Of a stretch of DNA of 45,792 bases, positions 3,389 to 45,134 are shown one piece after another. The stretch is from Clostridiaceae bacterium. Its GTDB lineage: Bacteria > Bacillota > Clostridia > Acetivibrionales > Acetivibrionaceae. The position numbers and the translations under genes are program-made. The DNA lies in assembly GCA_012519925.1 (NCBI GenBank), contig JAAYPF010000009.1, forward strand, positions 1 to 45,792, given 5' to 3'. How positions within the stretch are numbered: the stretch's first letter is position 1; every line of letters begins with the position of its first letter. Under the pieces are notes generated by a model. The model saw nothing but the letters and a program-made list of their open reading frames with translations. It was not told where the DNA came from and did no database searches.

Positions 3389-3418
3389 GTTCACAAGAAC
3401 AAGAGGGATGTGAATAAT

Positions 3419-6400
3419 ATGTTTGAATTACCGGGCTATAATATTGATGAACTTATTTATAGAAGTCAAAAATCTTCTATTTATAGAGGTACTCAAATTT
3501 CAGATAATAAGAAAGTTCTAGTTAAACTTCAAAATAACGAATATCCGACAAAAGAAGAATTAATAAATATAAAAAGAGAAGCTATGATAACTGGAAAAGA
3601 CTATGGCGATAAGGTAATTAAAGTATATGGCACAAAAAATTATAAAAACTCTATTGCTATAATTTTAGAAGACTTTGGAGCAAGACCGTTGTCTGATTTA
3701 TTAAGTTTAAATACGCTCGATTTGAAGAAAAAGTTGTTTATTGCTGTCAATATAGCTGAAGCTTTAGTACAAATTCATAGACAAGGCGTAATTCACAAAG
3801 ACATAAATCCTTACAACATTGTTTGGAACACTGAAACTGATGAGATTAAGGTTGTTGATTTTGGTTTGTCTACAGAATTAATAAGCGAGAAAAGCTTTAA
3901 TACGAATATATTTGAGGGAACTTGTTTATATATATCTCCAGAGCAGACAGGAAAGATAAACAGACCTGTCGATTTTAGGGCGGATTTATATTCTATGGGA
4001 GTAACTTTGTATGAAATATTTACAGGCAAACTTCCCTTTACTGGTGATGAGTTGGGAGTTATTTACAGCCATATTGCGAAAACACCAATTGAACCTAAAA
4101 CCGTTTGTAGTGAAATTCCATCAACAATTTCAGACATAATTATGAAATTATTATCAAAAAATGCTGAAGACAGATATCAAACAGCTATAGGTTTGAAATA
4201 TGATTTGGAATACTGTTTGGAAAATATATATTCGAGAGATAAAATTATTAATTTCAGGATTGCAGAAAAAGATATCTCCAATAGATTTGAAATTCCTCAG
4301 AAACTTTATGGAAGAGAAAAGGACATAAATAATTTAAGAGATATACTTAAAAACACTAAGGAAAGCAGTATTAAAATGTTGGTTGTTTCAGGCTACTCAG
4401 GTATTGGAAAAACCGCTATTATACAAGAAATAAGTCAGGAAGCAATTTACAAAGGCGGTAGATTTATATCAGGCAAATTTGAGCAATTTGGACGTAACAA
4501 TCCTTATAGTGCACTAAAAGAAGCGTTTGGAATGCTTATAAAAAACATAGTGCTAGTAGCAAAAAATTATGATTATTGGAGAAGCAGCTTAGAAAAGGCA
4601 TTAGGGAAAAATGCTGGAATTCTTGTAGAATTCATACCCGAACTTGAACAAATAATTGGTAAACAGCCTGAAGTTCATAAAATGGAACCAGTTGAAGAGA
4701 AAAACAGACTAAACTTAGCCTTGAGTAATTTTATTAAAGTTTTTGCAAATGAAGAAAATCAATTAATAATGTTTTTAGATGACCTCCAATGGAGCGATAT
4801 GTCTTCAATTGACATGTTGGAATACCTCATATCATCGGAGGATATTAACAATCTCATTATTATAGGCTCATACAGGGATAATGAGGTCCTAGATGGTCAT
4901 CCGTTATTATCTATGTTTGATAGAGTGAAAAAGACTTTAGGCAATGAAGATTTTCTATATCAACATAATATTGAAGCCATAGAAGAGACAGCTGTAAACC
5001 AGTTAATTGCTGATACTTTAAGATATAATCCTGAAGATACCGCCTTATTATCAAACTACGTATATCAAAAGACAAAAGGTAATCCTTTTTTTACTTGTCA
5101 ATTACTAAAGACTCTGTACGAGAATGAATTGTTTAAATTTAATGAGGAAAGCTCGATATGGGAATGGCATATAGAAGAAATTAGAAATATTCAATTAAGC
5201 GACAATGTAGTGGATTTTCTAATAGAAAACTTAAAGCTATTACCTTTTGATTCTCTTTATATTCTAAAAGCTGCTTCATGTATAGGGAATTATTTTGAAT
5301 TAAGAATTATATATGAAATATGTAAAGATATAGAAGACATATATAGTGCTTTAAGGATTGCAATGGAAAAAGAATATGTAGTGCCAGTAGATAATAATTA
5401 TAAATTTTTAAATGTAGAAAAAGACGAATATTTGAAATCTGGAATTAAAATAAATTTTAGATTTAATCATAGTAGAATTCAGCAAGCGGCATATTCATTG
5501 GTTTCTGACAAAGAAAAGGAATTAATTCATTATAGGGTCGGAAAAATCCTATTGAATACTTATAATAATAAAAACATGTACGGAAGCAAAATTTTCGAAA
5601 TAACAAATCATTTGAATGTTGGAAGAAACATTATAAATAGTAAAACAGAACGAATGGAACTTCTAGATTTAAATTATTATGCTGGAAAAAGAGCAAAGAA
5701 AAATATGGCGTATAGTATCGCTAAAAATTACTATATCATAGGAAAAAGCCTGTTTACCAAGGATGAATGGCTTGATATCCCAAAAAAATTGTTTGATTTT
5801 TCTTTGGAATATATTGAAGCATGTTATCTGTCCGGAGATATCGAGGAGATAATGGTCTTATGCGATAATACATTGAAGCTAGCATCAAATAATATTGAAA
5901 AGGCTATGGTGTATGAATTAAAAGCTAAGATTCTAGACCACACAGGAGAAAAGCGTGATATAGTAGCAGAGGAGATTAAAAAGGGTCTTAAATTATTCGA
6001 TGCAGATTTACCTTCAGATCCAAGGGATATAGATGTTGAAATTGGTGTAGGTATTGAAAAAATACATAGTTACTTAGCAGATAATTGTATGGATGATTTA
6101 GTTAATCTACCATTACTGAAAGACGAAAATAAAATCATGGTTATGAAATTATTATTCCAATTATCGCCAATAGCCTTTGAATTATATCCGCCCCTAAATA
6201 TATTAATACAGCTAAAAATGTTTGATACGGCAGTAAAATCCGGAATAGTAGAAGTAAACTGTAAGAATTTCTCGGAGTGTGGAATTGTTTTTGGACCTGT
6301 TCTTGGGGACTATGAGCTTTCTTATAAGTTTAATAAGGTGGCTTTTTCTTTGATTGACAAGTACAAATTCGATTCATTAAGAGCAGGAACCTATTTTGTT

Positions 6401-8617
6401 TTCGCAACTTTTATATCTCACTGGAAAAAGCATTATTCCGAGGGTTTGGAGTATTTTGATCTTTCGATTAAATATGGAATGGAAACCGGCGACATTATAC
6501 ATGCTTTTTGGTCGACAATCTACAAATTGGATCATAATTTTTATATAGGGAAAAATCTAGATGAATTTATTCAGGATTTAGAAAAAACTGAGAAGTTGTT
6601 AATGTTTTACAAGGTGATGCTTTTGTTGCCCTTTGTAGGTCTAATGAAGCATGTGGTAAGCCAACTTCAGTCGGCATATAATTATGAAGCAGAAAATTCT
6701 ATTCTTGAGATGCTTGCACAGGGCAATAACATGGCTGCTACTTTTAAATTCGGTGAGTTTAATGTAATGACAAATTATGTACTCGGGAATTATGAGGCGG
6801 CTCTGAAATGGGTTGAATATACTGAAAAATATATTGATGCTAGTAGAGGTCTGTTTAGTTCTGCAAATTATGCCATGGCCAGTTCTTTAAGCCTAATAAA
6901 GAAGATTGAAAAAGAAGCAGGAGCAGATAAAGATGAAATCCTAAAACAAATAAATAAGAAATTGGATAGCTTAAAAATTTGGTGTGAAAGTTGCCCCGAA
7001 AATTTTGAGCATAAGTACTATATCGTTGCAGCAGAATTAGCAAGAATTCAAAACAAGCCTTTAGAAACTATTATTGGCTTATATAGAAAATCTCTTGATT
7101 CAATAGTACCAGGAGAGTTTATAAACATGAAAGCCATAATAAATGAAATTATTGGCGAGTTTTGGATATCTAGGAATGAAGAGATAGTAGGGAAAACTTA
7201 TATAAAAGAAGCTAAATATTTCTATAATCACTGGGGCGTTTATGAGAAAGTAAGAATTTTAGAGACGAAGTATTCGGATTTTTCTACCGAAAGAAAATAT
7301 GCCAGTAAGTTTTCTCGAAGAAAACAATCTATAAAACGAACAAGTACTAATTCAAGCACATTAAGTCTAGATATTAAGTCTATCTTGAAGTCTACTCAGG
7401 CTATATCAAGTGAAATAAGATTTGATAAGTTGCTTAAGCTACTTATGAATGTGGTTATGGAAAATACAGGGGGGCAAAAGGGCTGCGTTATTTTAAGAAA
7501 TATAAATGATGATAAATTATATGTTGAAGTAATTAAAAATGGCGAAAATGAAGATAGCCGAATAACAAACTCCCTTCCATTAAGTGAAAGTAATGATTTT
7601 TGCCCTGACATAGTACAATATGTAAAGAGAACCCATGAAATAGTTGTTTTAGGTAATGCTATGAATAATCATTATTACAAGAATACTGATTACATAAAGA
7701 GAGTGAATGCCAAATCAATTTTATGTGTACCGATTATTCATCAAAACGATCTTAAGGGGATTATCTATCTTGAGAACAATCTAGCTGAAGATGTATTTAG
7801 TTCCCAGAGAATAGAGGCGATAGAAATCTTATCCTCGCATATTGCTATATCTGTTGAAAAGGCACAGGTATATGAAAAATTAGAATATATAGTCAATGAA
7901 AGAACTCAGCAATTGGCAATAGCGAATTCGGAATTAAAAGAACTGTCACTTCGTGATCCACTAACCAAACTATATAACAGGAGATATGTGTATGAATATA
8001 TAAACAAATCCACCGAAAAGTTTATAAAATCGAAAATGGAATTATTTTTTAACAGTCAAAAAAGTGATTTAGACACTAACAACAATGTAATTGGCTTGTA
8101 CCTTATTGATATTGATCACTTCAAAAAAGTAAATGATACATATGGTCATGCTGCCGGAGATCAGGTTCTTATTAAACTAACAGAAGTCCTAAAAAGTCTT
8201 GTTAGATCGGAAGATTTTGTAGTTAGGTGGGGAGGAGAAGAATTTTTAGTCTTCTTAAATAATACCAAGGTAGAATACCTTGAACAGTTTTCCAAAAAAT
8301 TATTAAGTAAAATAAGGGAAACTAGCATAGAGTTACCGAATAAGACTATTATAAATAAGACTTGCTCAATAGGTTGTGCGTATCTGCCCTTCGAAATGTG
8401 TTGTCCGGATATATTAAATTTTGAGCAAACTATAAATATATGTGATTTTGCTTTGTATCAAGCTAAAGAACATGGAAGAGATTGCTCTGTTCATATTAGT
8501 CTGGCAACATCAGATTGTAAAAATATTGATGAATTAAAAAAATACTTAACTACTTTGACAAAGGAATCTGTCATTAATAATAATTTTATTAGTATAAAAT
8601 ATATTTGTGCCAATTGA
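3419..8617 (+). CDS. Ser/Thr kinase - AAA ATPase - TPR-like - GAF - GGDEF sensor protein
   Basis: This is a giant signalling protein of 1,732 residues. Residues 1-265 form a protein kinase domain with the catalytic loop HKDINPYN (Asp128), DFG at 147-149 and SPE in place of APE. The Gly-rich ATP loop is not recognisable. A STAND/AAA-type ATPase follows, with Walker A GYSGIGKT at 325-332 and Walker B FLDD with Asp454-455. A long helical, TPR-like middle extends to about 1300. A GAF sensor domain lies at about 1335-1480. The last domain is a GGDEF diguanylate cyclase from about 1510, with active site GGEEF at 1605-1609 and an intact RxxD inhibitory site (RSED) just before it. No transmembrane segment is obvious, so it is probably cytosolic. 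Related kinase-ATPase-GAF proteins usually end in a histidine kinase, so the cyclase end implies output through cyclic di-GMP. ATG 3419 is preferred over GTG 3410 because AGAGGG ends at 3407. Confidence 0.88.
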   Translation: MFELPGYNIDELIYRSQKSSIYRGTQISDNKKVLVKLQNNEYPTKEELINIKREAMITGKDYGDKVIKVYGTKNYKNSIAIILEDFGARPLSDLLSLNTLDLKKKLFIAVNIAEALVQIHRQGVIHKDINPYNIVWNTETDEIKVVDFGLSTELISEKSFNTNIFEGTCLYISPEQTGKINRPVDFRADLYSMGVTLYEIFTGKLPFTGDELGVIYSHIAKTPIEPKTVCSEIPSTISDIIMKLLSKNAEDRYQTAIGLKYDLEYCLENIYSRDKIINFRIAEKDISNRFEIPQKLYGREKDINNLRDILKNTKESSIKMLVVSGYSGIGKTAIIQEISQEAIYKGGRFISGKFEQFGRNNPYSALKEAFGMLIKNIVLVAKNYDYWRSSLEKALGKNAGILVEFIPELEQIIGKQPEVHKMEPVEEKNRLNLALSNFIKVFANEENQLIMFLDDLQWSDMSSIDMLEYLISSEDINNLIIIGSYRDNEVLDGHPLLSMFDRVKKTLGNEDFLYQHNIEAIEETAVNQLIADTLRYNPEDTALLSNYVYQKTKGNPFFTCQLLKTLYENELFKFNEESSIWEWHIEEIRNIQLSDNVVDFLIENLKLLPFDSLYILKAASCIGNYFELRIIYEICKDIEDIYSALRIAMEKEYVVPVDNNYKFLNVEKDEYLKSGIKINFRFNHSRIQQAAYSLVSDKEKELIHYRVGKILLNTYNNKNMYGSKIFEITNHLNVGRNIINSKTERMELLDLNYYAGKRAKKNMAYSIAKNYYIIGKSLFTKDEWLDIPKKLFDFSLEYIEACYLSGDIEEIMVLCDNTLKLASNNIEKAMVYELKAKILDHTGEKRDIVAEEIKKGLKLFDADLPSDPRDIDVEIGVGIEKIHSYLADNCMDDLVNLPLLKDENKIMVMKLLFQLSPIAFELYPPLNILIQLKMFDTAVKSGIVEVNCKNFSECGIVFGPVLGDYELSYKFNKVAFSLIDKYKFDSLRAGTYFVFATFISHWKKHYSEGLEYFDLSIKYGMETGDIIHAFWSTIYKLDHNFYIGKNLDEFIQDLEKTEKLLMFYKVMLLLPFVGLMKHVVSQLQSAYNYEAENSILEMLAQGNNMAATFKFGEFNVMTNYVLGNYEAALKWVEYTEKYIDASRGLFSSANYAMASSLSLIKKIEKEAGADKDEILKQINKKLDSLKIWCESCPENFEHKYYIVAAELARIQNKPLETIIGLYRKSLDSIVPGEFINMKAIINEIIGEFWISRNEEIVGKTYIKEAKYFYNHWGVYEKVRILETKYSDFSTERKYASKFSRRKQSIKRTSTNSSTLSLDIKSILKSTQAISSEIRFDKLLKLLMNVVMENTGGQKGCVILRNINDDKLYVEVIKNGENEDSRITNSLPLSESNDFCPDIVQYVKRTHEIVVLGNAMNNHYYKNTDYIKRVNAKSILCVPIIHQNDLKGIIYLENNLAEDVFSSQRIEAIEILSSHIAISVEKAQVYEKLEYIVNERTQQLAIANSELKELSLRDPLTKLYNRRYVYEYINKSTEKFIKSKMELFFNSQKSDLDTNNNVIGLYLIDIDHFKKVNDTYGHAAGDQVLIKLTEVLKSLVRSEDFVVRWGGEEFLVFLNNTKVEYLEQFSKKLLSKIRETSIELPNKTIINKTCSIGCAYLPFEMCCPDILNFEQTINICDFALYQAKEHGRDCSVHISLATSDCKNIDELKKYLTTLTKESVINNNFISIKYICAN

Positions 8618-9926: not shown

Positions 9927-9962
9927 AATCAGAAGGCTATTATGGATAGCCTTCTGATTTTA
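9927..9962. terminator. Bidirectional terminator between ytvI and sigK
   Basis: The perfect 14-base stem AATCAGAAGGCTAT/ATAGCCTTCTGATT has the loop TATGG. It is followed by TTTTAATT on the plus strand, with AT-rich sequence on the other side. The stem contains the sigK stop codon (9940-9942), so the converging genes share one compact terminator. Confidence 0.9.
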
Positions 9963-10650
9963 ATTCCTTACCTAGTTTTTTTATTGCTTTCTTTTCAATT
10001 CTTGATACATAGGATCTTGAAATACCTAGCATTTTTGCTATTTCTCGTTGAGTTTTACTTGTACCATTTAAAAGGCCATACCTGAGTTCTAAAACCACTT
10101 TTTCCCTATTCTTAAGTACCAGCTTCATTTTATTGTATAAACGTTTAACCTGCATTTTTAGTTCAACTTCTTCAACAACCGATTCAGCTTCGTTTCCAAT
10201 TACGTCAATAAGAGCTATTTCATTTCCTTCACGGTCAATGCCAATAGGATCCTGAAGAGAGACTTCACTTTGAATTTTTCTGTTGGACCTGATTTGCATC
10301 AAAATTTCATTTTCGATGCATCGGGCAGCATAGGTGGCTAGTCGGGTTCCTTTTTCGTGGTTAAAGGTGGCAATTGCTTTTATGAGCCCTATTGTTCCGA
10401 TGGAGATAAGGTCATCGGAATCACCTACTGTAGAGTTGTACTTTTTTACAATGTGAGCTACAAGCCTTAAATTTCTTTCGATAAGGATATTCCTCGCTTC
10501 TTCGCTACCTTCTTTAAGCATATTAATATAGTGTTTCTCTTCCTCTGGACTTAGTGGCTGTGGGAATGAATTTACACTGGATACATACCCAAAAAGGAAA
10601 AATATGTTTTTTATTGTTTCAAATAGTAGTGTGCAAGCTATTGTAAACAA
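9940..10650 (-). CDS. sigK: RNA polymerase sporulation sigma factor SigK (pro-sigma-K)
   Basis: This is the mother-cell sigma factor for late sporulation. The 236 residues begin with a hydrophobic pro-segment (FETIKNIFFLFGYV, about 10-23), the type that SpoIVFB removes in Bacillus. The region 2 core follows (NLRLVAHIVKKYN, DDLISIGTIGLIKAI, RLATYAARCIENEILMQIR), then the region 4 helix-turn-helix (REIAKMLGISRSYVSRIEKKA). The gene is one uninterrupted frame, with no excisable skin-type element splitting it as in Bacillus subtilis and Clostridioides difficile. The start is TTG, fixed by a perfect GGAGGTG nine bases upstream. The gene converges with ytvI. Confidence 0.93.
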   Translation of the reverse strand: MFTIACTLLFETIKNIFFLFGYVSSVNSFPQPLSPEEEKHYINMLKEGSEEARNILIERNLRLVAHIVKKYNSTVGDSDDLISIGTIGLIKAIATFNHEKGTRLATYAARCIENEILMQIRSNRKIQSEVSLQDPIGIDREGNEIALIDVIGNEAESVVEEVELKMQVKRLYNKMKLVLKNREKVVLELRYGLLNGTSKTQREIAKMLGISRSYVSRIEKKAIKKLGKELKSEGYP

Positions 10651-36375: not shown

Positions 36376-37314
36376 ATGAAAGTAATATATGGCAAATATC
36401 AAAAAATTGAATTGACAAAACCCACTGGTATTGGATTAGGTAATTTTGACGGCTTGCATATTGCACACATGGAATTGATAAATACATTAATTGGTGAATC
36501 AAAGGAAAAGGAGCTAGAATCGGTTTTATATAGTTTTAACAAGCATCCTGAGAATATTATTAGAAAAAAGCTGTTCACACCTCTAATTACTTCTATGAAT
36601 AAGAAAAGTAAGCTGCTTGAGCTTACTCAGCTTGATTATGCGTATTTTGAGGAGTTTGACGAGCCCTTTTCAAGAATGAGCCCTGAGTCCTTTGTAAAAG
36701 ATATACTTGTGGATAAATTTGATATGAAATTAGCAGTTACAGGATATGATTACAGGTTTGGTTATAAGGGGCAGGGGGATGTTGCCTATTTAAAAGAGCT
36801 CGGACAAAAGTATAAATACAAGGTAATAACCATTCCTCCAATAAAAGTAGGCGATGCTATAGTAAGTAGTACATCTATTAGAACCCATGTCAAAAAAGGA
36901 GATATGGACAGTGCCTTTAAACTGTTAGGTAGGCATTATTCAATCACCGGTATTGTTGAAAAAGGCAAAAGGATTGGAAACACAATAGGTTTTCCGACTG
37001 CTAATATATATCCCGAGAATTACCTTTTGATGCCAACGGATGGCGTATATATTACACGTACATATTTGAAGGACAATATATATAATAGTATAACGAATAT
37101 CGGAAATAACCCTACTTTTGATGGACAGAAAAAATCTATCGAGACTTATATTTTTGATTATAGTGAAGATATCTATGGAAAGGATATTGAAGTTTTTTTT
37201 CTTAAAAAAATTAGGGCTGAAAAAAAATTTAGTAGCAAAGAAGAGTTGGTTGATCAAATAAAAAAGGATATTGAAACCGCTAGGCAATACTTTGAATTTT
37301 CTGTAACAAATTAA
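36376..37314 (+). CDS. ribF: Bifunctional riboflavin kinase/FAD synthetase
   Basis: Converts riboflavin to FMN and FAD. It has 312 residues. The N-terminal adenylyltransferase domain has GNFDGLHIAH (22-31) and VTGYDYRFGYKGQGD, with SSTSIRTHVKKGD at its end. The C-terminal flavokinase domain begins near 185, with GKRIGNTIGFPTANI at about 197-211 and DGVYITR. The initial ATG has a weak purine-rich leader (AAAGGAATAGGGT). It follows truB by 85 bases and ends the large housekeeping run. Confidence 0.96.
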   Translation: MKVIYGKYQKIELTKPTGIGLGNFDGLHIAHMELINTLIGESKEKELESVLYSFNKHPENIIRKKLFTPLITSMNKKSKLLELTQLDYAYFEEFDEPFSRMSPESFVKDILVDKFDMKLAVTGYDYRFGYKGQGDVAYLKELGQKYKYKVITIPPIKVGDAIVSSTSIRTHVKKGDMDSAFKLLGRHYSITGIVEKGKRIGNTIGFPTANIYPENYLLMPTDGVYITRTYLKDNIYNSITNIGNNPTFDGQKKSIETYIFDYSEDIYGKDIEVFFLKKIRAEKKFSSKEELVDQIKKDIETARQYFEFSVTN

Positions 37315-37421
37315 TATTTGAGCTTGAGAATATTATGAAATAAACCTATTTAGGTGATTAAAGAAACTATGATGAATATAGTTTTTACACATTCAAATCT
37401 TTATGGGAAATAAATGAAAAA

Positions 37422-37449
37422 AGTACTATCGCTTTAATACGATAGTACT
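37422..37449 (-). terminator. Terminator of the 56-residue minus-strand gene
   Basis: The perfect 10-base stem AGTACTATCG/CGATAGTACT has an 8-base loop. On the minus strand it is followed at once by TTTTTTCATTT and lies 5 bases after the small gene's stop. It may also stop ribF transcripts arriving on the plus strand, though the T run is on the other side. Confidence 0.85.
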
Positions 37450-37454
37450 CTTAA

Positions 37455-37625
37455 TCAACATCTACTTTTTTTCCACATATATCCTAAGAATAGACCGTTT
37501 ACAAAACTGAAGGCTAAAATTCCTGCAGCTGCAATTCCACTTAAGTTTAATACTTTTTCTTCATCCTCGCTATTAGCTTTAACATGGCTTCTTGGATGTT
37601 TTCTATAATATCTGTTTTGAATCAT
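37455..37625 (-). CDS. Small single-pass membrane protein, 56 residues, unknown function
   Basis: The protein starts MIQNRYYRKHPRSHVKANSE and ends GYMWKKSRC. The first 25 residues are basic then acidic. Residues of about 27-50 form a Gly/Ala-rich hydrophobic helix, followed by a KK basic stop and a C-terminal Cys. GGAGGG lies six bases before the ATG and a strong terminator follows directly, so this short frame has the signals of a real gene. It runs opposite to its neighbours ribF and the serine hydrolase. I do not recognise a family. A regulatory or spore-associated membrane peptide is possible but unsupported. Confidence 0.78.
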   Translation of the reverse strand: MIQNRYYRKHPRSHVKANSEDEEKVLNLSGIAAAGILAFSFVNGLFLGYMWKKSRC

Positions 37626-38103
37626 TTACATCCCTCCAATATTAGTATTTTCAAATACTTTTTTTTTATGTTCACACGCAGGTTTTATTTTTTGCTATGC
37701 ATTTTTTTACTAGATTGATACTAAAAAAAGTTTATTGCGAATAATATAAAACTATGGTAGCATGAAAATATGTTAAAACGCTATAAAACAAAGTTAAAAG
37801 TGTTTTTTGGGGATCAGTTTGACGGTAGAGATATTAGGAAGAAATTTATATGGCTGTTCTATGTTTTTACATAGTTAAAACGAAAAGTCTACTGAGATTA
37901 AGCAGACTAATCTTTCAAATGTCGATCGGCATGCATATTTGTAATAAACTCTTTAAGCTTTGTTACTCACAGAAAAAATATATAATATTTTAGTTAAAAA
38001 CTTGTCGCAGAGGGTTTTTTGAATGGACAATCGGCTATTTATATTTTTTAGAATAATCAAAATTAAGTAATGTAGTTAAAACTGATGCAAGGAGAAGTGT
38101 AAA
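37626..38103. other. Intergenic region upstream of the serine hydrolase gene
   Basis: No gene is visible. An inverted repeat AGTATTT-tc-AAATACT (37644-37659) lies just upstream of the small minus-strand gene and could be its operator. Two small hairpins follow: CTATGT/ACATAG (37859-37874) and AGTCT-a-CT/AG-c-AGACT (37886-37908). The rest is AT-rich and unstructured until the promoter at about 38018. Confidence 0.5.
38018..38046 (+). promoter_or_regulatory. Possible promoter of the serine hydrolase gene
   Basis: TTGAAT, a 17-base spacer and TATTTT, about 50 bases before the ATG. A fair but not strong match. Confidence 0.4.
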
Positions 38104-39267
38104 ATGGCAAGGTTTAAGAATTTATCTGAGTTGTTAAAGAAATATGTTGAAAATGGTTTGGCTGGATGCGGATGTGCTGTTGCAAAAGATGGGGAGGTTT
38201 TATATCAGGGGTATTTCGGTTTTGCTGATTTGGAGGAACAAAGAAAGATAACAGAAGATACTGTATACCGATTGTTTTCAATGACAAAAGTAGTGATATG
38301 CACAGCAGCTATGATTTTGTTTGAAAGAGGAGAATTTCTTTTAAATGAGCCGATTTACGAATATATTCCAGAATACAAGGATACACAGGTATTTGTATTA
38401 GATACTACCGGAAATATTAATGTGAAAAAGGCTAAGAATGATATGCTAATCAAGCATGCGTTTAATATGTCTGTTGGAATACCATACCCTGATATGGATT
38501 CACCTACAGCAAGGGAAATGATACGAGTAAGAAATGAATTAGAGAAAAAACACGGTAAATATGATATTTTGACCGAAGTAAAAGCAATGGGGTCAGTTCC
38601 TGTTGCATTTGAGCCAGGTACCCGATGGCTATATGGATATGGACATGATATTATTGCCGGTTTAATACAGATTATTTCAGGAAAGACTGTGGGGAAATTT
38701 TTGCAAGATGAAATATTTGAACCTTTGGGTATGAAGAATACAGGTTATCGTTACTTTGACGATATTGAGAAGAGGATGGTTTCTCATTACAAAAGAGATA
38801 GTGATGGTTCACTGTCAAAAATTTCTGGTCCTCTAGATCAATTTCATGAACCGGATGCAATTTATGAAGCTGGAGGTGCAGGACTTTTTTCTACCGTTAA
38901 TGATTATCTCAAATTTTCGCAAATGCTGGCAAATGGAGGGGTTTTTAATGGAGAAAGAATTATTGGAAGAAAGACTATAGATCTTATGAGGGCTAATCAC
39001 TTAAGTGCTGAACAGTTGAAGGACTATAGAAACTCGTACTTAGATGGGTATGGATATGGCTTAGGAGTAAGAACACTAATGGATACAGCACAAGCTCATT
39101 TTAATGGTTCCATTGGCGAATTTGGATGGACTGGTATGTTGGGAACTTATGTAAGTATAGATCCGAAAGAACGATCTTCTATTGTATATATGCATCAAAT
39201 GTACCCTAATATGGAAGAGTATTATCACCACCGTGTAAGAGGGGTTGTAAATGGTTGTTTAGATTAA
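38104..39267 (+). CDS. Serine hydrolase of the beta-lactamase/esterase (class C, EstB-like) family
   Basis: A 387-residue protein with the penicillin-recognising fold. The SxxK motif is SMTK with Ser59 and Lys62. The Tyr motif is read as YGY at 177-179 (usually YxN), and a third motif resembling HFNGSIGEFGWTG replaces KTG. FSTVNDYLKFSQMLANGG is a typical family segment. There is no signal peptide, so unlike secreted beta-lactamases it is probably a cytosolic esterase or amidohydrolase. Its place before a hemicellulose-degrading block suggests, without proof, deacylation of imported sugars. AAGGAGAAG lies about seven bases before the ATG. Confidence 0.82.
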   Translation: MARFKNLSELLKKYVENGLAGCGCAVAKDGEVLYQGYFGFADLEEQRKITEDTVYRLFSMTKVVICTAAMILFERGEFLLNEPIYEYIPEYKDTQVFVLDTTGNINVKKAKNDMLIKHAFNMSVGIPYPDMDSPTAREMIRVRNELEKKHGKYDILTEVKAMGSVPVAFEPGTRWLYGYGHDIIAGLIQIISGKTVGKFLQDEIFEPLGMKNTGYRYFDDIEKRMVSHYKRDSDGSLSKISGPLDQFHEPDAIYEAGGAGLFSTVNDYLKFSQMLANGGVFNGERIIGRKTIDLMRANHLSAEQLKDYRNSYLDGYGYGLGVRTLMDTAQAHFNGSIGEFGWTGMLGTYVSIDPKERSSIVYMHQMYPNMEEYYHHRVRGVVNGCLD

Positions 39268-39368
39268 GAGCCTTTTATGAAGCGTTGGTTGGAGAAATTG
39301 TTTTAAGCCTATTGTGAAAAATTCCAAAAGGTACTATTGACTTTTAGAATAATATAAATTCTATGATT

Positions 39369-39408
39369 AACACTCTCGTTGTACGTGGTTATCGGGAGTG
39401 TTTATCTT
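39369..39408 (+). terminator. Hairpin after the serine hydrolase gene
   Basis: AACACTC-t-CG pairs with CG-g-GAGTGTT (39369-39402), with a 14-base loop, followed by TATCTT. The T content after the stem is modest. Confidence 0.6.
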
Positions 39409-39450
39409 AGACAGAGTTAAATAACTATAGTAATATAGAATGCTGGAATT

Positions 39451-39483
39451 AATATTGTACATTTTACAATATTATGCTAGTAT
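39451..39483 (+). promoter_or_regulatory. Promoter with overlapping inverted repeat upstream of the DUF3237-GH51 genes
   Basis: TTGTAC (39455-39460), 17 bases and TAGTAT (39478-39483) form a good promoter. AATATTGTA (39451-39459) and TACAATATT (39465-39473) form a perfect 9-base inverted repeat with a 5-base centre covering the -35 box. This is a classic repressor position. The ATTGTAC/TACAAT half-sites recall AraR-type operators (ATTTGTACGTACAAAT in Bacillus), but the spacing differs. Confidence 0.6.
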
Positions 39484-39559
39484 TTATGTAATTGGCTCAC
39501 TATAATGGTCTATTAATGAAATTCTATTTTAACAAATAGAAAAGGAGGGGAACAAGCAT

Positions 39560-39979
39560 TTGAGTTTTGAAGATTTATTCACTGTATACATAGAAATCAA
39601 AGAAGAAATTTCATTAAAAAACTTTTATGGAGACAGTGTTGTGATGATTCAGTTTACAGGTAGTGCAACGGGTAAGTATTTTACTGGGCAAGTGCTTCCT
39701 GGAGCGATTGATACTCAGATTATACAAAAGCATGGGGATAGACATATTATATCCGCAAGGTATATGCTTGAAGGGAAAGATTATACGGGAGAAAGCTGTA
39801 AAATATATATTGAAAATAACGGTTATGCAATAAAAGAACCGAGTAATGTGTTGTTCAGAACATATCCTAAAATTATCACAGACAGTAAGACCTTGGATTT
39901 TTTAAATAAGGATCTATTGGCAGGGGAAGTGTTTTTTAAGGATAATGAACTGGAAGCAAAGTTTTATAGAGCAGTATAG
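39560..39979 (+). CDS. DUF3237 family protein
   Basis: A 139-residue protein matching the DUF3237 pattern as I remember it: a small beta-barrel with IQFTGSATGKYFTGQVLPGAIDTQ, RHIISARYMLEGKDYTGESCKIYIENNG and a C-terminal beta pair. No enzyme activity is established for the family. There is no signal peptide. The TTG start is supported by AAGGAGGGG nine bases upstream, and no ATG occurs early in the frame. It lies 36 bases before the GH51 gene and shares its promoter, suggesting a role in arabinose-containing glycan use. Confidence 0.8.
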   Translation: MSFEDLFTVYIEIKEEISLKNFYGDSVVMIQFTGSATGKYFTGQVLPGAIDTQIIQKHGDRHIISARYMLEGKDYTGESCKIYIENNGYAIKEPSNVLFRTYPKIITDSKTLDFLNKDLLAGEVFFKDNELEAKFYRAV

Positions 39980-40015
39980 AAAAATGTTTATTAGTTAAAG
40001 AAAAGGGGAAAACTA

Positions 40016-41494
40016 ATGGCTAGAATGATATTGAATGCAGATATTAAGAAAGGGAAAATCAACAAAAACATATACGGACATTTCTCGGAACATCTTGGAA
40101 GATGTATATACGAAGGGATATGGGTTGGAGAAGAGTCTGAGATTCCAAACATAAAAGGATACCGTAAAGATGTTATGGAAGCATTGAAAAAGCTGGAGAT
40201 TCCTGTACTAAGATGGCCGGGAGGGTGCTTTGCCGATGAGTATCACTGGATGGATGGAATAGGTCCAAGAGAGAAAAGACCTTATATGATTAATACCCAT
40301 TGGGGTGGCGTGGTAGAGAATAATCATTTTGGAACTCATGAATTCTTAGAATTTTGTGAAATGATCGGTGCTGAGCCCTATATCTGCGGAAATGTGGGAA
40401 GCGGTACTGTTCATGAAATGCAGCAATGGGTAGAGTATATGACCTTTGACGGCAAATCGCCCATGGCTGATTTGAGAAGGCAAAATGGAAAAGAAGAACC
40501 TTGGAAGCTAAAATATTTCGGGGTAGGAAATGAAAACTGGGGCTGCGGTGGAAACATGAGACCTGAATATTACGCAGACCTTTACAGAAGATATTCAACA
40601 TACGTGCGTAACTATGGAGACAATACAATTTATAAAGTTGCATGTGGAGCTAATACTGCTGACTATCACTGGACAGAAGTTTTGATGAGAGAAGCTGGAC
40701 ATTTGATGGATGCAATAAGCTTGCATTACTATACCGTACCACATGACTTTTTTACTGGGAAGGGTTCGGCCACTGAATTCGATGAGGAAGAATGGTTTAA
40801 AACGTTCCAAAAGGCACTGTATATGGAAGAATTACTTACTAAGCATATTACTATCATGGATAAATATGATCCGGAAAAGAAGGTTGACTTGTTAGTTGAT
40901 GAATGGGGAGCATGGTATGATGTGGAACCTGGCACAAATCCAGGCTTTTTGTACCAGCAGAATACTTTGAGGGATGCTTTGATAGCAGGTGCTACCCTGA
41001 ATATTTTCAATAATTATTGTGAAAGAGTACAAATGGCAAATATAGCTCAGACGGTAAATGTGCTTCAGGCCATGATTTTGACTGAGGGAGATAAAATGAT
41101 TTTAACACCTACATACCATATCTTTGATATGTATAAGGTACATAAAGATGCACAACTTTTATCCCTTGAAGTTGAAAATATTGAGTATTCCTGTAAGTGT
41201 GAAAAAATACCACAGCTAAGTGTATCAGCATCAAAGGATAAGGAAGGCAAAATACATGTTTCAATTTGTAACCTCAATCCGCTACAAGATATTGAAGTTG
41301 ATATTGATATAAGAGGAACAACAGTACAGAGTATAGGTGGAAAAGTTCTGACAGCTCAGGCAATGAATGCGATGAACACCTTTGAAGATGATAATCAAGT
41401 GAAAATTGATGCGTTAAAAGATGCAACAATAGAAAATAATTATGCGAAATGTAAAATTCCATCAAAATCCGTTGTTGTTTTGGAGATAAAGTAA
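40016..41494 (+). CDS. GH51 alpha-L-arabinofuranosidase
   Basis: Removes terminal L-arabinofuranose from arabinoxylan- or arabinan-derived oligosaccharides, by a retaining mechanism. It has 492 residues, standard for intracellular bacterial GH51. The (beta/alpha)8 barrel carries [20 protein letters not shown] near the start, [14 protein letters not shown], the acid/base Glu173 in [11 protein letters not shown], and the nucleophile Glu296 in [13 protein letters not shown]-terminal beta-sandwich follows from about 400. No signal peptide, so it is cytosolic. AAAGGGGAAAA precedes the ATG. It shares a transcript with the DUF3237 gene. The symbol abfA is used for relatives but not assigned here. 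Confidence 0.95.
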
Positions 41495-41509
41495 TCTTCG
41501 ATTGTTTCT

Positions 41510-41550
41510 GAATTAAGCAATTGTAAAAACATATTGCAATTGCTTAATTC
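41510..41550. terminator. Long inverted repeat after the GH51 gene
   Basis: GAATTAAGCAATTG (41510-41523) and CAATTGCTTAATTC (41537-41550) are perfectly complementary, with a 13-base loop. The stem is followed by AAAAAA, not a T run, so it is a poor intrinsic terminator. It may instead protect the mRNA 3' end or block exonucleases. Confidence 0.5.
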
Positions 41551-41710
41551 AAAAAATTCTGTTTTATATATTGTGTAGTAAAAGATGTTTAAAGGATTGG
41601 AAAGTTAAGACATTACAATAATGTACTACGTTCATTAAAGCATGGTTAAGCTATTCTTGAACGATTATACAGAAAAATATGCCATTATGTTTATTTAGGT
41701 GGTTTTTTTT

Positions 41711-41992
41711 ATGAAAGGGCAAAAATGTAAAAGCTGTTCGGAAAATGTGAAGATAAAGGCACAGATTTCTCAAGATCAAATCAATGATGCAATTGATAAA
41801 CTTGCAAGAAGTAAACGTATCAAGTTTGTTAGAGATGATGTTTATGAGTTTAGATTATTGCAATGTAGTAAATGTGAATATCTTGAGCATGGCTCCACCT
41901 GCATGCAGTGTGGATGCTTTGTTCAAATTCGAGCAAAGCTCGAGGATGCACGATGCCCGCTTTCAAAAAATAACAGATGGGCTCATCAATAA
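41711..41992 (+). CDS. Small Cys-rich, zinc-ribbon-like protein (DUF6171-like)
   Basis: A 93-residue protein with clustered cysteines: CKSC near the N-terminus, CSKC in the middle, CMQCGC and a final CPL. The pattern fits two zinc-binding sites. The layout (CxxC, a helical stretch, then a C-terminal CxxC and CxxCGC with RAKLEDARCP) is what I recall for DUF6171, whose function is unknown. ATG 41711 is preferred to GTG 41699 because AGGTGG lies eight bases before the ATG. It sits between two glycosidase genes, which is the only functional hint. Confidence 0.75.
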   Translation: MKGQKCKSCSENVKIKAQISQDQINDAIDKLARSKRIKFVRDDVYEFRLLQCSKCEYLEHGSTCMQCGCFVQIRAKLEDARCPLSKNNRWAHQ

Positions 41993-42095
41993 TAATTTCT
42001 TTATTTAAGTTTTTCAGTATAATAGGATAATATTTTAGATTCAACCAATCAGTTTTACTTATAGAATCACCATATTAAAAAACAGGAGGTTTGAG

Positions 42096-43604
42096 ATGGT
42101 AAAGAAGATTGAAGTACCTGTATCGGGTAAGCCTTTCAAAAACTATGCAAATTATTGTGTCGGAACCGGCAGGATGGGTCTGGCATTGCAAAAAGAGTAT
42201 ATCGATCATTTGAAAATGGTTCAGGAAACTATACGTTTTAAATATATCCGCGGTCATGGATTGTTTTGTGATGATGTAGGTATATATCGTGAGTGTGAAA
42301 TGGATGGAAAGACTAGTGTGTTTTACAATTTTACCTATCTAGACCGAATAATAGACACCTATTTGGAGAATGGAATACGCCCATTCATTGAACTTGGTTT
42401 CATGCCTGAAAAACTTAAAACTGGTGAACAAACTGTGTTTTATTGGAAAGGCAACGTTACACCACCCGTATCTTATGAAAAATGGTCTGAGCTTATAATA
42501 AACACTTTAAACCACTTGATTGATAGGTATGGCAGGGATGAGGTGATTACCTGGCCGATTGAGGTGTGGAATGAACCTAATATTCCTTTCTGGGCAGGTA
42601 CCATGGAGGAGTATTTCAAGCTTTATGAATATTCAGCTGCAGCTGTAAAAAGTGTTGATGCCCGTATACAGATTGGTGGACCTGCAATTTGCGGTGTTGA
42701 CACTGAACGCTGGTTGAGGGGATTTTTTGAATATTGCGTAAAGAATAATACACCTTTGGACTTTATAACTCGTCATTGTTATACGGCGAATGACCCGACT
42801 ACTCGTGGGCATTATATATATCATACCATGCGTGAACCTACACGAATGATTGAAGAACTTAAAGAAACGCGCGAGATTATGGCTGACTATCCACGAATTG
42901 CAAATATGCCCTTGCATATAACGGAGTTTAACACTTCTTATGTGCCTATATGTCCTATACATGATACGGATTATAATGCGGCCTTCATTGCACGTATACT
43001 TAGTGAAGCAGGAGAATATGCAGATTCTTATTCCTATTGGACCTTCAGTGATGTTTTTGAGGAGATGGATGTTCCAAAGTCGGTATTTCACGGAGGATTT
43101 GGTTTGATTGCCCTTAATTCCATAAAAAAACCGACCTATTATACTTTTGAGTTTTTCTCAAACGCCGGCAAGGAGTTGCTTTATAGGGATGATAATCTGA
43201 TTGTGACTAAAAATGACAACAAGTATGTAATTATTGGCTGGAACTGTCATGACATGCGTGATCATAAACCGTCTCCCGATATAGATTATCTAATAACATT
43301 GCCATCTATAGGTAAACAGGCTTTGCTATTAAGAAAGGATGTAGGAGGAGCACATGCGAACCCTATGAAGACTTGGAGCAACCTTGGCAAGCCACGCAGT
43401 TTGAACAAGGAACAGTTGAGAATACTGAAGGCCTCTGCTGAACCGCTCCAAACCGATGAAAAATTGCTTGAACAAAATGGAGCGTATGAAGTAAAAGTGA
43501 CAATCCCTTGCAACCACCTTTGCATGTTGGAAATCACTCCTGTCATGGACATGACAGACACTTATCTAGGGTATGATCCCGATGAATTTTATGGCATTGA
43601 GTAG
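42096..43604 (+). CDS. GH39 beta-xylosidase
   Basis: Releases xylose from xylo-oligosaccharides, retaining mechanism. It has 502 residues, matching the Thermoanaerobacterium and Geobacillus XynB size. The acid/base Glu160 lies in EVWNEPNIPFWAGT and the nucleophile Glu277 in LHITEFNTSY, the same positions as in Thermoanaerobacterium XynB. FKYIRGHGLFCDDVGIY and FITRHCYT complete the active site. There is no signal peptide, so it is cytosolic. AGGAGG lies about seven bases before the ATG. The symbol xynB is used for homologues but not assigned here. Confidence 0.94.
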   Translation: MVKKIEVPVSGKPFKNYANYCVGTGRMGLALQKEYIDHLKMVQETIRFKYIRGHGLFCDDVGIYRECEMDGKTSVFYNFTYLDRIIDTYLENGIRPFIELGFMPEKLKTGEQTVFYWKGNVTPPVSYEKWSELIINTLNHLIDRYGRDEVITWPIEVWNEPNIPFWAGTMEEYFKLYEYSAAAVKSVDARIQIGGPAICGVDTERWLRGFFEYCVKNNTPLDFITRHCYTANDPTTRGHYIYHTMREPTRMIEELKETREIMADYPRIANMPLHITEFNTSYVPICPIHDTDYNAAFIARILSEAGEYADSYSYWTFSDVFEEMDVPKSVFHGGFGLIALNSIKKPTYYTFEFFSNAGKELLYRDDNLIVTKNDNKYVIIGWNCHDMRDHKPSPDIDYLITLPSIGKQALLLRKDVGGAHANPMKTWSNLGKPRSLNKEQLRILKASAEPLQTDEKLLEQNGAYEVKVTIPCNHLCMLEITPVMDMTDTYLGYDPDEFYGIE

Positions 43605-43712
43605 TTTTTATAAGAATAGTATTAATTATATATGTTGCGAAAAAGGTTTTACTTTATAAAACTATTTACAAAGGGCTTTTGCTAAAACAGGGCCACCAAA
43701 GGAGGACAGAAA

Positions 43713-45134
43713 ATGATAATGAAAAAGCAAGGTTTTAATCCATATCTTCCATCATGGGAATATATTCCCGATGGTGAACCGTATGTTTTTAACAACAGAG
43801 TGTATGTTTATGGATCTCATGATCGTTTTAACGGACATGCCTATTGTTTAAACGATTATGTATGTTGGTCGGCACCAATTGATGACTTGACTGACTGGAA
43901 ATATGAAGGTGTTATTTACAAAAAAACAGATGACCCCCTTAATCATGACGGTAGTATGTGCCTTTATGCACCAGACGTTACAGTTGGACCTGATGGGAAA
44001 TATTATTTGTATTATGTCCTTGATAAGGTTTCAATTGTATCGGTAGCAGTTTGTGATAATCCAGCAGGTAAGTTTGAATTCTATGGGTATGTTCATTATG
44101 CTGATGGAATACGCCTAGGAGAAAGGAAGGATGACCAACCTCAATTTGATCCAGGTGTATTGACAGAAGGAGAGAAAACATATCTGTATACCGGTTTTTG
44201 TCCAGTTGGCGATAAGTCGAGAAAAGGTTCCATGGTAACAGTGCTTGGTTCGGATATGCTTACTATTGTGGAACAACCTGTAATTGTAGCACCTAGTGAA
44301 CCTTATAGTAAAGGAAGCGGATTTGAAGGACATGAATTTTTTGAGGCTCCTTCTATAAGAAAGAAAGGGGATACTTATTACTTTATATATTCCTCTGTTG
44401 TTTACCATGAATTGTGTTATGCTACCAGCAAATATCCAACAAAGGATTTTAAATATCAGGGAGTTATTGTGAGTAATAATGATCTTCATATTGATTCTTA
44501 CAAACAGGCGGATAAACCTATGTACTACGGTGGCAACAATCATGGTAGCATAGTAGAAATCAACGGAAAATGGTATATCTTTTATCATAGACACACCAAT
44601 GGGACAAATTTCAGTCGACAAGGTTGTATTGAGCAGATTGAATATAAAGAGGATGGAACTATTCCGCAGGTAGAAATGACCTCCTGTGGTTCTAATGGCG
44701 GTCCACTAGAAGGGCGTGGAGAATACCCGGCATATATAGCATGTAACTTATTCTGCAAATATGAGGAAAAGTATACAGGAGCTCCTGGAGAATGGATGGA
44801 TTGTCGATTTCCTAAGATAACTCAAGATGGAAAAGATGGTGATGAAGAGATCGGTTACATAGCTAATTTGAGAGACGGTGCTGCAGCTGGATTTAAATAC
44901 TTCGATTGCAAAGGAGTCAAAAGGGTAAAAATTAAGGTACGTGGATATTGCCGTGGAAATTTTGCGGTGAAGACATCATGGGACGGTGTAGAACTTGGGA
45001 AGATACCTGTTGATTTTACCAACGTGTGGAAGGAGTATTCTGCCGATATTGCCATACCTGATGGTATACAGGCATTATATTTTGTGTATACAGGAGAGGG
45101 TGGTGCAAGCTTAGCATCATTTTCACTGGAATAA
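43713..45134 (+). CDS. GH43 family glycoside hydrolase with C-terminal carbohydrate-binding-like domain
   Basis: A 473-residue inverting glycosidase of the five-bladed beta-propeller type, likely a beta-xylosidase or arabinofuranosidase. The catalytic triad is read as Asp in YIPDGEPYVF near 19, Asp in YAPDVT near 89 and Glu in FFEAPSI near 210. The propeller ends near 320. A beta-sandwich resembling CBM6 follows (about 345-473, with AGFKYFDCKGVKRVKIKVRG and WDGVELGKIPV). No signal peptide is present. GGAGG lies about eight bases before the ATG. It follows GH39 by 108 bases with no clear terminator, so they may be cotranscribed. Substrate specificity within GH43 cannot be set from sequence reading. 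Confidence 0.92.
   Translation: MIMKKQGFNPYLPSWEYIPDGEPYVFNNRVYVYGSHDRFNGHAYCLNDYVCWSAPIDDLTDWKYEGVIYKKTDDPLNHDGSMCLYAPDVTVGPDGKYYLYYVLDKVSIVSVAVCDNPAGKFEFYGYVHYADGIRLGERKDDQPQFDPGVLTEGEKTYLYTGFCPVGDKSRKGSMVTVLGSDMLTIVEQPVIVAPSEPYSKGSGFEGHEFFEAPSIRKKGDTYYFIYSSVVYHELCYATSKYPTKDFKYQGVIVSNNDLHIDSYKQADKPMYYGGNNHGSIVEINGKWYIFYHRHTNGTNFSRQGCIEQIEYKEDGTIPQVEMTSCGSNGGPLEGRGEYPAYIACNLFCKYEEKYTGAPGEWMDCRFPKITQDGKDGDEEIGYIANLRDGAAAGFKYFDCKGVKRVKIKVRGYCRGNFAVKTSWDGVELGKIPVDFTNVWKEYSADIAIPDGIQALYFVYTGEGGASLASFSLE

Follow-up and report, generated by a model that had tools for sequence, protein, structure and literature searches.

The 45,792-nt stretch of DNA analysed here (the window) encodes on its minus strand a small membrane protein of 56 aa, here named S, and sequence comparison gives good support to the view that S represents an unnamed, lineage-specific small-protein family new to Pfam and NCBIfam. 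On balance, S appears to be a single-pass membrane protein made in the forespore under the control of sigmaF or sigmaG. The gene had been pointed out in an earlier note on this DNA; its linkage to yfmF-yfmH and yhcN and its sporulation-type promoter go beyond that note.

The coding sequence starts with ATG and, at 171 nt, exceeds the usual minimum length in gene finders. The frame alone is no evidence of a gene, because the same 7 kb is overlapped by 41 ORFs with lengths of 40 aa or more, and it is the conservation seen among relatives that lifts it above chance. The GGAGGG motif proposed in the earlier note is present at normal distance from the ATG, and GGAGGGAT is retained as ribosome-binding site by most relatives of the same family. 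Downstream of S, the terminator stem has the 10 perfect pairs that had been claimed (37449-37440 with 37431-37422, around a loop of 8; 14 pairs with its extension), while the T run consists of five T after the stem and reaches the claimed six only when the last stem base is counted. The structure folds with -19.3 kcal/mol (z -7.4; equally stable shuffles 0 of 200) and is one of two terminator-like sites found, against 0.3 expected. S is opposed to its neighbours, as had been noted, being convergent with ribF, which rbfA, an NrnA-like gene and truB precede in the window, and pointing away from the esterase-like gene at 38104. The coordinates of all features are given in the table.

Table. Features in and around the S gene (window coordinates)
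Feature	Coordinates	Strand	Basis
S coding sequence (56 aa), stop codon included	37455..37625	-	ORF list, homologue alignment, codon-position comparison
Ribosome-binding site GGAGGG	37632..37637	-	read from sequence, relatives compared
-10-like box AATACTA of the proposed forespore-type promoter	37643..37649	-	upstream comparison; coordinates from sequence
-35-like box ACATA, 17 nt upstream of the -10-like box	37667..37671	-	upstream comparison; coordinates from sequence
Inverted repeat AGTATTT-GA-AAATACT	37644..37659	-	sequence and comparison with relatives
Intrinsic terminator (stem, loop, T run)	37417..37452	-	terminator scan, folding
ribF, convergent neighbour of S	36376..37314	+	family typing
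Hemicellulase island (esterase-like, DUF3237, arabinofuranosidase, GH39 and GH43 genes)	38104..45134	+	family typing, comparison with G001

A search with the single sequence gave S matches in 39 of 60 relatives, and a 20-row profile search within the window's order found homologues in 46 of 58 genomes, and in 37 of the 42 of good quality. The carriers hold S in single copy; two more matches in the window's own genome (E 0.19 and 0.99) lie inside long frames. The 45 listed loci correspond to 44 genomes, as L057 and L065 are one contig; two more genomes, G010 and G012, were included by the coordinates of their loci. At one locus (L097, genome G046) the N-terminal part of the S frame is disrupted and the helix part is open, which may reflect a sequencing error or decay; this locus was kept in the counts.

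The earlier note had proposed a peptide search in cellulolytic Clostridia. The window peptide alone gave no match in a nucleotide-seeded search of named genomes, and a closer alignment of six sequences found seven named loci, in Herbivorax sp. ANBcel31, Acetivibrio alkalicellulosi, A. mesophilus, A. straminisolvens and three MAG records. Outside the order, four more genomes of one family in the same class matched at E <=4e-6 (33-row profile), and a profile that included their sequences found S in five of seven genomes of a second order. The 398 genomes sampled from the phylum and the 391 sampled from the class, the latter with members of both S-carrying orders, gave no other match that was accepted. 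One phylum match inside a 334-aa frame was taken as chance, as were the class matches at E > 5e-5, nearly all of which were in longer frames, broken by stops or confined to part of the profile.

The nucleotide differences between the window and the related genome G001 fall 9, 7 and 20 times on the three codon positions. An excess at the third position was clear in nine of the eleven close pairs compared, weak in one (14, 10, 16) and absent in one (13, 7, 12). With these comparisons and the distribution over the order, the view of the earlier note that S is a real small protein has held; the outcome it had set against this view, no homologue anywhere, was not what the searches returned.

The same note had called the protein undescribed. 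Neither Pfam (E <= 10) nor NCBIfam has a fitting family for S, and it is on this absence that the label rests. Matches of single members to these collections (best E 0.003) were scattered over unrelated families and were discarded, and S gave no family match to the small acid-soluble spore proteins (SASP; PF00269). Profile matches in the PDB were limited to photosystem I subunit III (E 0.15 and 1.2) and were taken as chance. The literature searched yielded no description of an S protein, a nameless sequence not being searchable by words.

The N-terminus of family members is basic (RKxPRxxxK); an acidic linker leads from it to a single C-terminal helix that contains a conserved GxxxG and is followed by basic residues. 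Four residues (M1, R8, A33 and G44) never vary in the 33-row alignment, and K16, G35, F41 and G48 hardly do. The single membrane helix described in the earlier note was recovered by hydropathy and by structure prediction. The best 19-residue hydropathy is 1.81 for S of the window and ranges from 1.57 to 2.41 over the 44 members measured, all of which have one hydrophobic helix. The AlphaFold model (8 rows) consists of one helix at residues 19-55 with a mean pLDDT of 74.7, and is confident in the membrane part only (about 91-94 at residues 31-50). The spacing of G44 and G48 suggests helix packing.

In 43 of the 46 carriers S lies divergently adjacent to a tandem pair of M16 peptidase genes, followed by lgt where the locus extends that far. 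The pair was typed by NCBIfam as YfmF and YfmH equivalogs (NF047422 and NF047421), corresponding to YmfF and YmfH of B. subtilis, and in the five loci examined the distal M16 protein has HFLEH and the proximal one no HxxEH. Unlike these conserved neighbours, S is no peptidase, and the pair is also found in genomes that have no S: twelve genomes of the order are S-less, and the nine of these that were examined at yfmF all keep this gene, with no S match at the locus. On its other side S has no constant neighbour: the genes found there include ribF, an ABC permease and a GGDEF protein (named by eye except for ribF).

Of the three exceptions, one (G044) has S at one contig end and the yfmF-yfmH pair ending another contig. 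In the other two, the window genome and G001, the hemicellulase island lies between S and the pair. The gene at 38104 that opens it in the window has a beta-lactamase/esterase fold. S of G001 is about 28 kb away from yfmF-yfmH, and four of the genes nearest to it match genes at window 38104-45134 in the same order with 72 to 86% identity. In G002, a member of the same genus, no island separates S from the pair, a pattern that resembles the insertion of an island between two divergently oriented genes.

At all five loci of the second order, the divergent neighbour of S is a gene for a Spore_YhcN_YlaJ lipoprotein (PF09580), with yfmF-yfmH next and, where reached, lgt. Two of these lipoprotein genes were typed by Pfam and all five by tblastn. 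The lipoproteins form a sporulation family by name; S itself is not a lipoprotein, nor is it similar to them. At these loci (L231-L234 and L253) a sporulation gene thus adjoins genes tied to EF-P modification.

Upstream of S, relatives share an element of two boxes, ATA-N17/18-AATA[AC]TA. A first count of the box was made on 27 hand-picked loci of the 44. In these, AATA[AC]TA lies 24 to 82 nt before the start codon, ATA is found 17/18 nt upstream of it in 25 and a G precedes the -10 in 22. The repeat with all 44 loci, using a slightly wider pattern, found the box in 40 and the full element in 32, compared with 28 and 8, respectively, of 236 control upstreams of other genes. When each genus is represented by a single locus, the full element occurs in 15 of the 17 genera that have the box (21 genera in total), whereas 500 rounds of flank shuffling gave a mean of 2.9 such genera and a maximum of 7. 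In the second order, the two-box promoter fits three of the five S loci.

Two other interpretations of this region were rejected. The conserved TTGAAAATAATAA stretch had been considered as an RNA or translation element, which was dropped because it lies anywhere from about 24 to 82 nt away from the start codon but keeps a spacing of 17/18 nt to ATA. The inverted repeat described in the earlier note is present (37659-37653 with 37650-37644); a role as conserved operator was not retained, since the AGTATTT/AAATACT repeat was not seen in relatives and the conserved -10-like box takes in its right arm.

In model organisms spoIIR is a target of sigmaF. Sites of the type GTATA-N15-GACAATACTT were found upstream of spoIIR in 27 of 30 loci, and 20 of them, left after near-duplicates had been dropped, were used to build a matrix. 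S upstreams scored higher with this matrix than shuffles (p 9e-8) and controls (p 6e-9; Mann-Whitney, p values that are optimistic as the rows are related), and the best match fell on the conserved S box in 18 of 27. The scores of S are modest, and the S site of the window is not outstanding within the window. Scans with textbook consensus sequences hardly separated S upstreams from shuffles, and a matrix made from S scored only a little above shuffles on the upstreams of gpr and SASP genes (27 of 30 SASP loci, truncated or misframed ones dropped). The two highest matches of the spoIIR matrix in the window are possibly due to chance: one (26537, plus strand, score 20.1) falls within an RseP-like gene that has an ispG-like gene downstream, the other (14065, minus strand, score 18.0) within a U32-peptidase-like gene, all named by eye.

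Saujet et al. (PMC3789822) describe the sigmaF and sigmaG promoters of C. difficile as alike, with the sigmaF ones keeping a G upstream of the -10, and another article proposes that the two regulons overlap (PMC7438776). With moderate confidence, the S promoter is assigned to the forespore type, which takes in sigmaF and sigmaG alike, because the two boxes are conserved, the element resembles that of spoIIR and the upstream G is present in most of the hand-picked loci, despite the modest scores and the weak match to the textbook consensus.

From this promoter we infer the sigma factor and hence the compartment. The YhcN/YlaJ lipoprotein gene found as divergent neighbour throughout the second order favours a forespore protein; the case is weakened in that yfmF, the gene closest to S in most genomes, does not belong to the sporulation genes. 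During sporulation, the two-box promoter would be read by RNA polymerase carrying sigmaF (or sigmaG, which overlaps with it), and a short mRNA would be translated from the strong GGAGGGAT site and end at its own terminator. The C-terminal helix would insert in the forespore membrane, later the inner membrane of the spore, where the glycines of GxxxG may pack it with itself or with another membrane protein. The basic N-terminus and acidic linker may serve as a flexible docking tail, and S would modulate, rather than catalyse, a process at the forespore membrane. S would thereby resemble the small spore membrane proteins of the sigmaF and sigmaG regulons, which are likewise short and single-helix; it shares with them a predicted forespore-type promoter and, among the genomes examined, a restriction to spore formers. 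Unlike known proteins of this kind, S has no sequence family match.

All 58 genomes of the order match the sigG model, 55 of them over the cut-off, and SASP genes are present in 56 of 58. The presence or absence of sporulation genes was dropped as a test of S, as it offers no contrast when every genome of the order holds sigG-family genes. The 12 S-less genomes all match the sigG model (at least 9 over the cut-off) and are spore formers by gene content. S therefore seems to have been dispensable for sporulation over evolution, since these genomes keep their sporulation genes.

Sporulation influences how cellulose-degrading clostridia are put to industrial use, and among the components of the spore the small membrane proteins of the forespore are poorly catalogued. 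S adds to the known proteins an unnamed small family across an order that includes Acetivibrio and Herbivorax, cellulose degraders among them, and its linkage to yfmF-yfmH and to yhcN-type genes offers concrete candidate partners.

That a different sigma factor drives S during vegetative growth or in stationary cells, without a tie to the spore, is unlikely. AT-rich promoters are easily misread and the standard consensus scans were not decisive, but the spacing of the two boxes is conserved across genera, the promoter resembles those of spoIIR, and the YhcN/YlaJ neighbour in the second order also argues against it.

The conserved adjacency suggests, weakly, a link with the protease pair, in which S would be a small membrane partner, regulator or substrate of YfmF/YfmH and its peptide would be cleaved or sensed by a heteromeric protease. 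S keeps this neighbour although the gene on its other side varies, it is near the pair at every second-order locus, and according to PMC8960859, B. subtilis YmfF/YmfH and relatives cut lanthipeptide precursors. A functional adjacency is nevertheless quite unlikely: yfmF persists where S is absent, yhcN intervenes at the second-order loci, S is retained in the window genome and G001 with the island in between, and S and the pair have different promoters as far as these could be read. Conserved gene order alone could account for the linkage and is the simpler view, because the pair persists without S and the nearest divergent gene in the second order is yhcN-like.

Promoters of sigmaE have ATA as -35 and a -10 that contains CATA. 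That S is made by sigmaE in the mother cell and acts in the outer forespore membrane or the mother-cell membrane is improbable, since the -10 of S in the window's order (GGCAATAATA or GAAAATAATA) lacks CATA and the spacing and upstream G fit sigmaF better, even though ATA is reported as -35 of sigmaE in C. difficile (PMC3789822).

A forespore-made S might also be the substrate or membrane anchor of the YfmF/YfmH pair, its processing or sensing coupling forespore development to translation or membrane state. Such a combination is decidedly improbable; if true, cleavage or sensing of S would tie sporulation to proteases that have a link with EF-P modification. A type I toxin-like hydrophobic peptide, which the short length, one hydrophobic helix and basic C-terminus might suggest, is extremely improbable for a single-copy gene at a fixed locus conserved over many families, and tblastn of plasmids gave no match to S; nor did an Rfam scan of the window give any match at gathering score, antitoxin RNAs included.

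Two further genes of the window were recognized by eye. One (9940-10650, minus strand) resembles a sporulation sigma factor of the sigmaK/sigmaE kind. The other (3410-8617, plus strand) encodes a protein of 1735 aa that resembles a serine/threonine kinase at its start, an ATPase in its middle and a GGDEF domain at its end.
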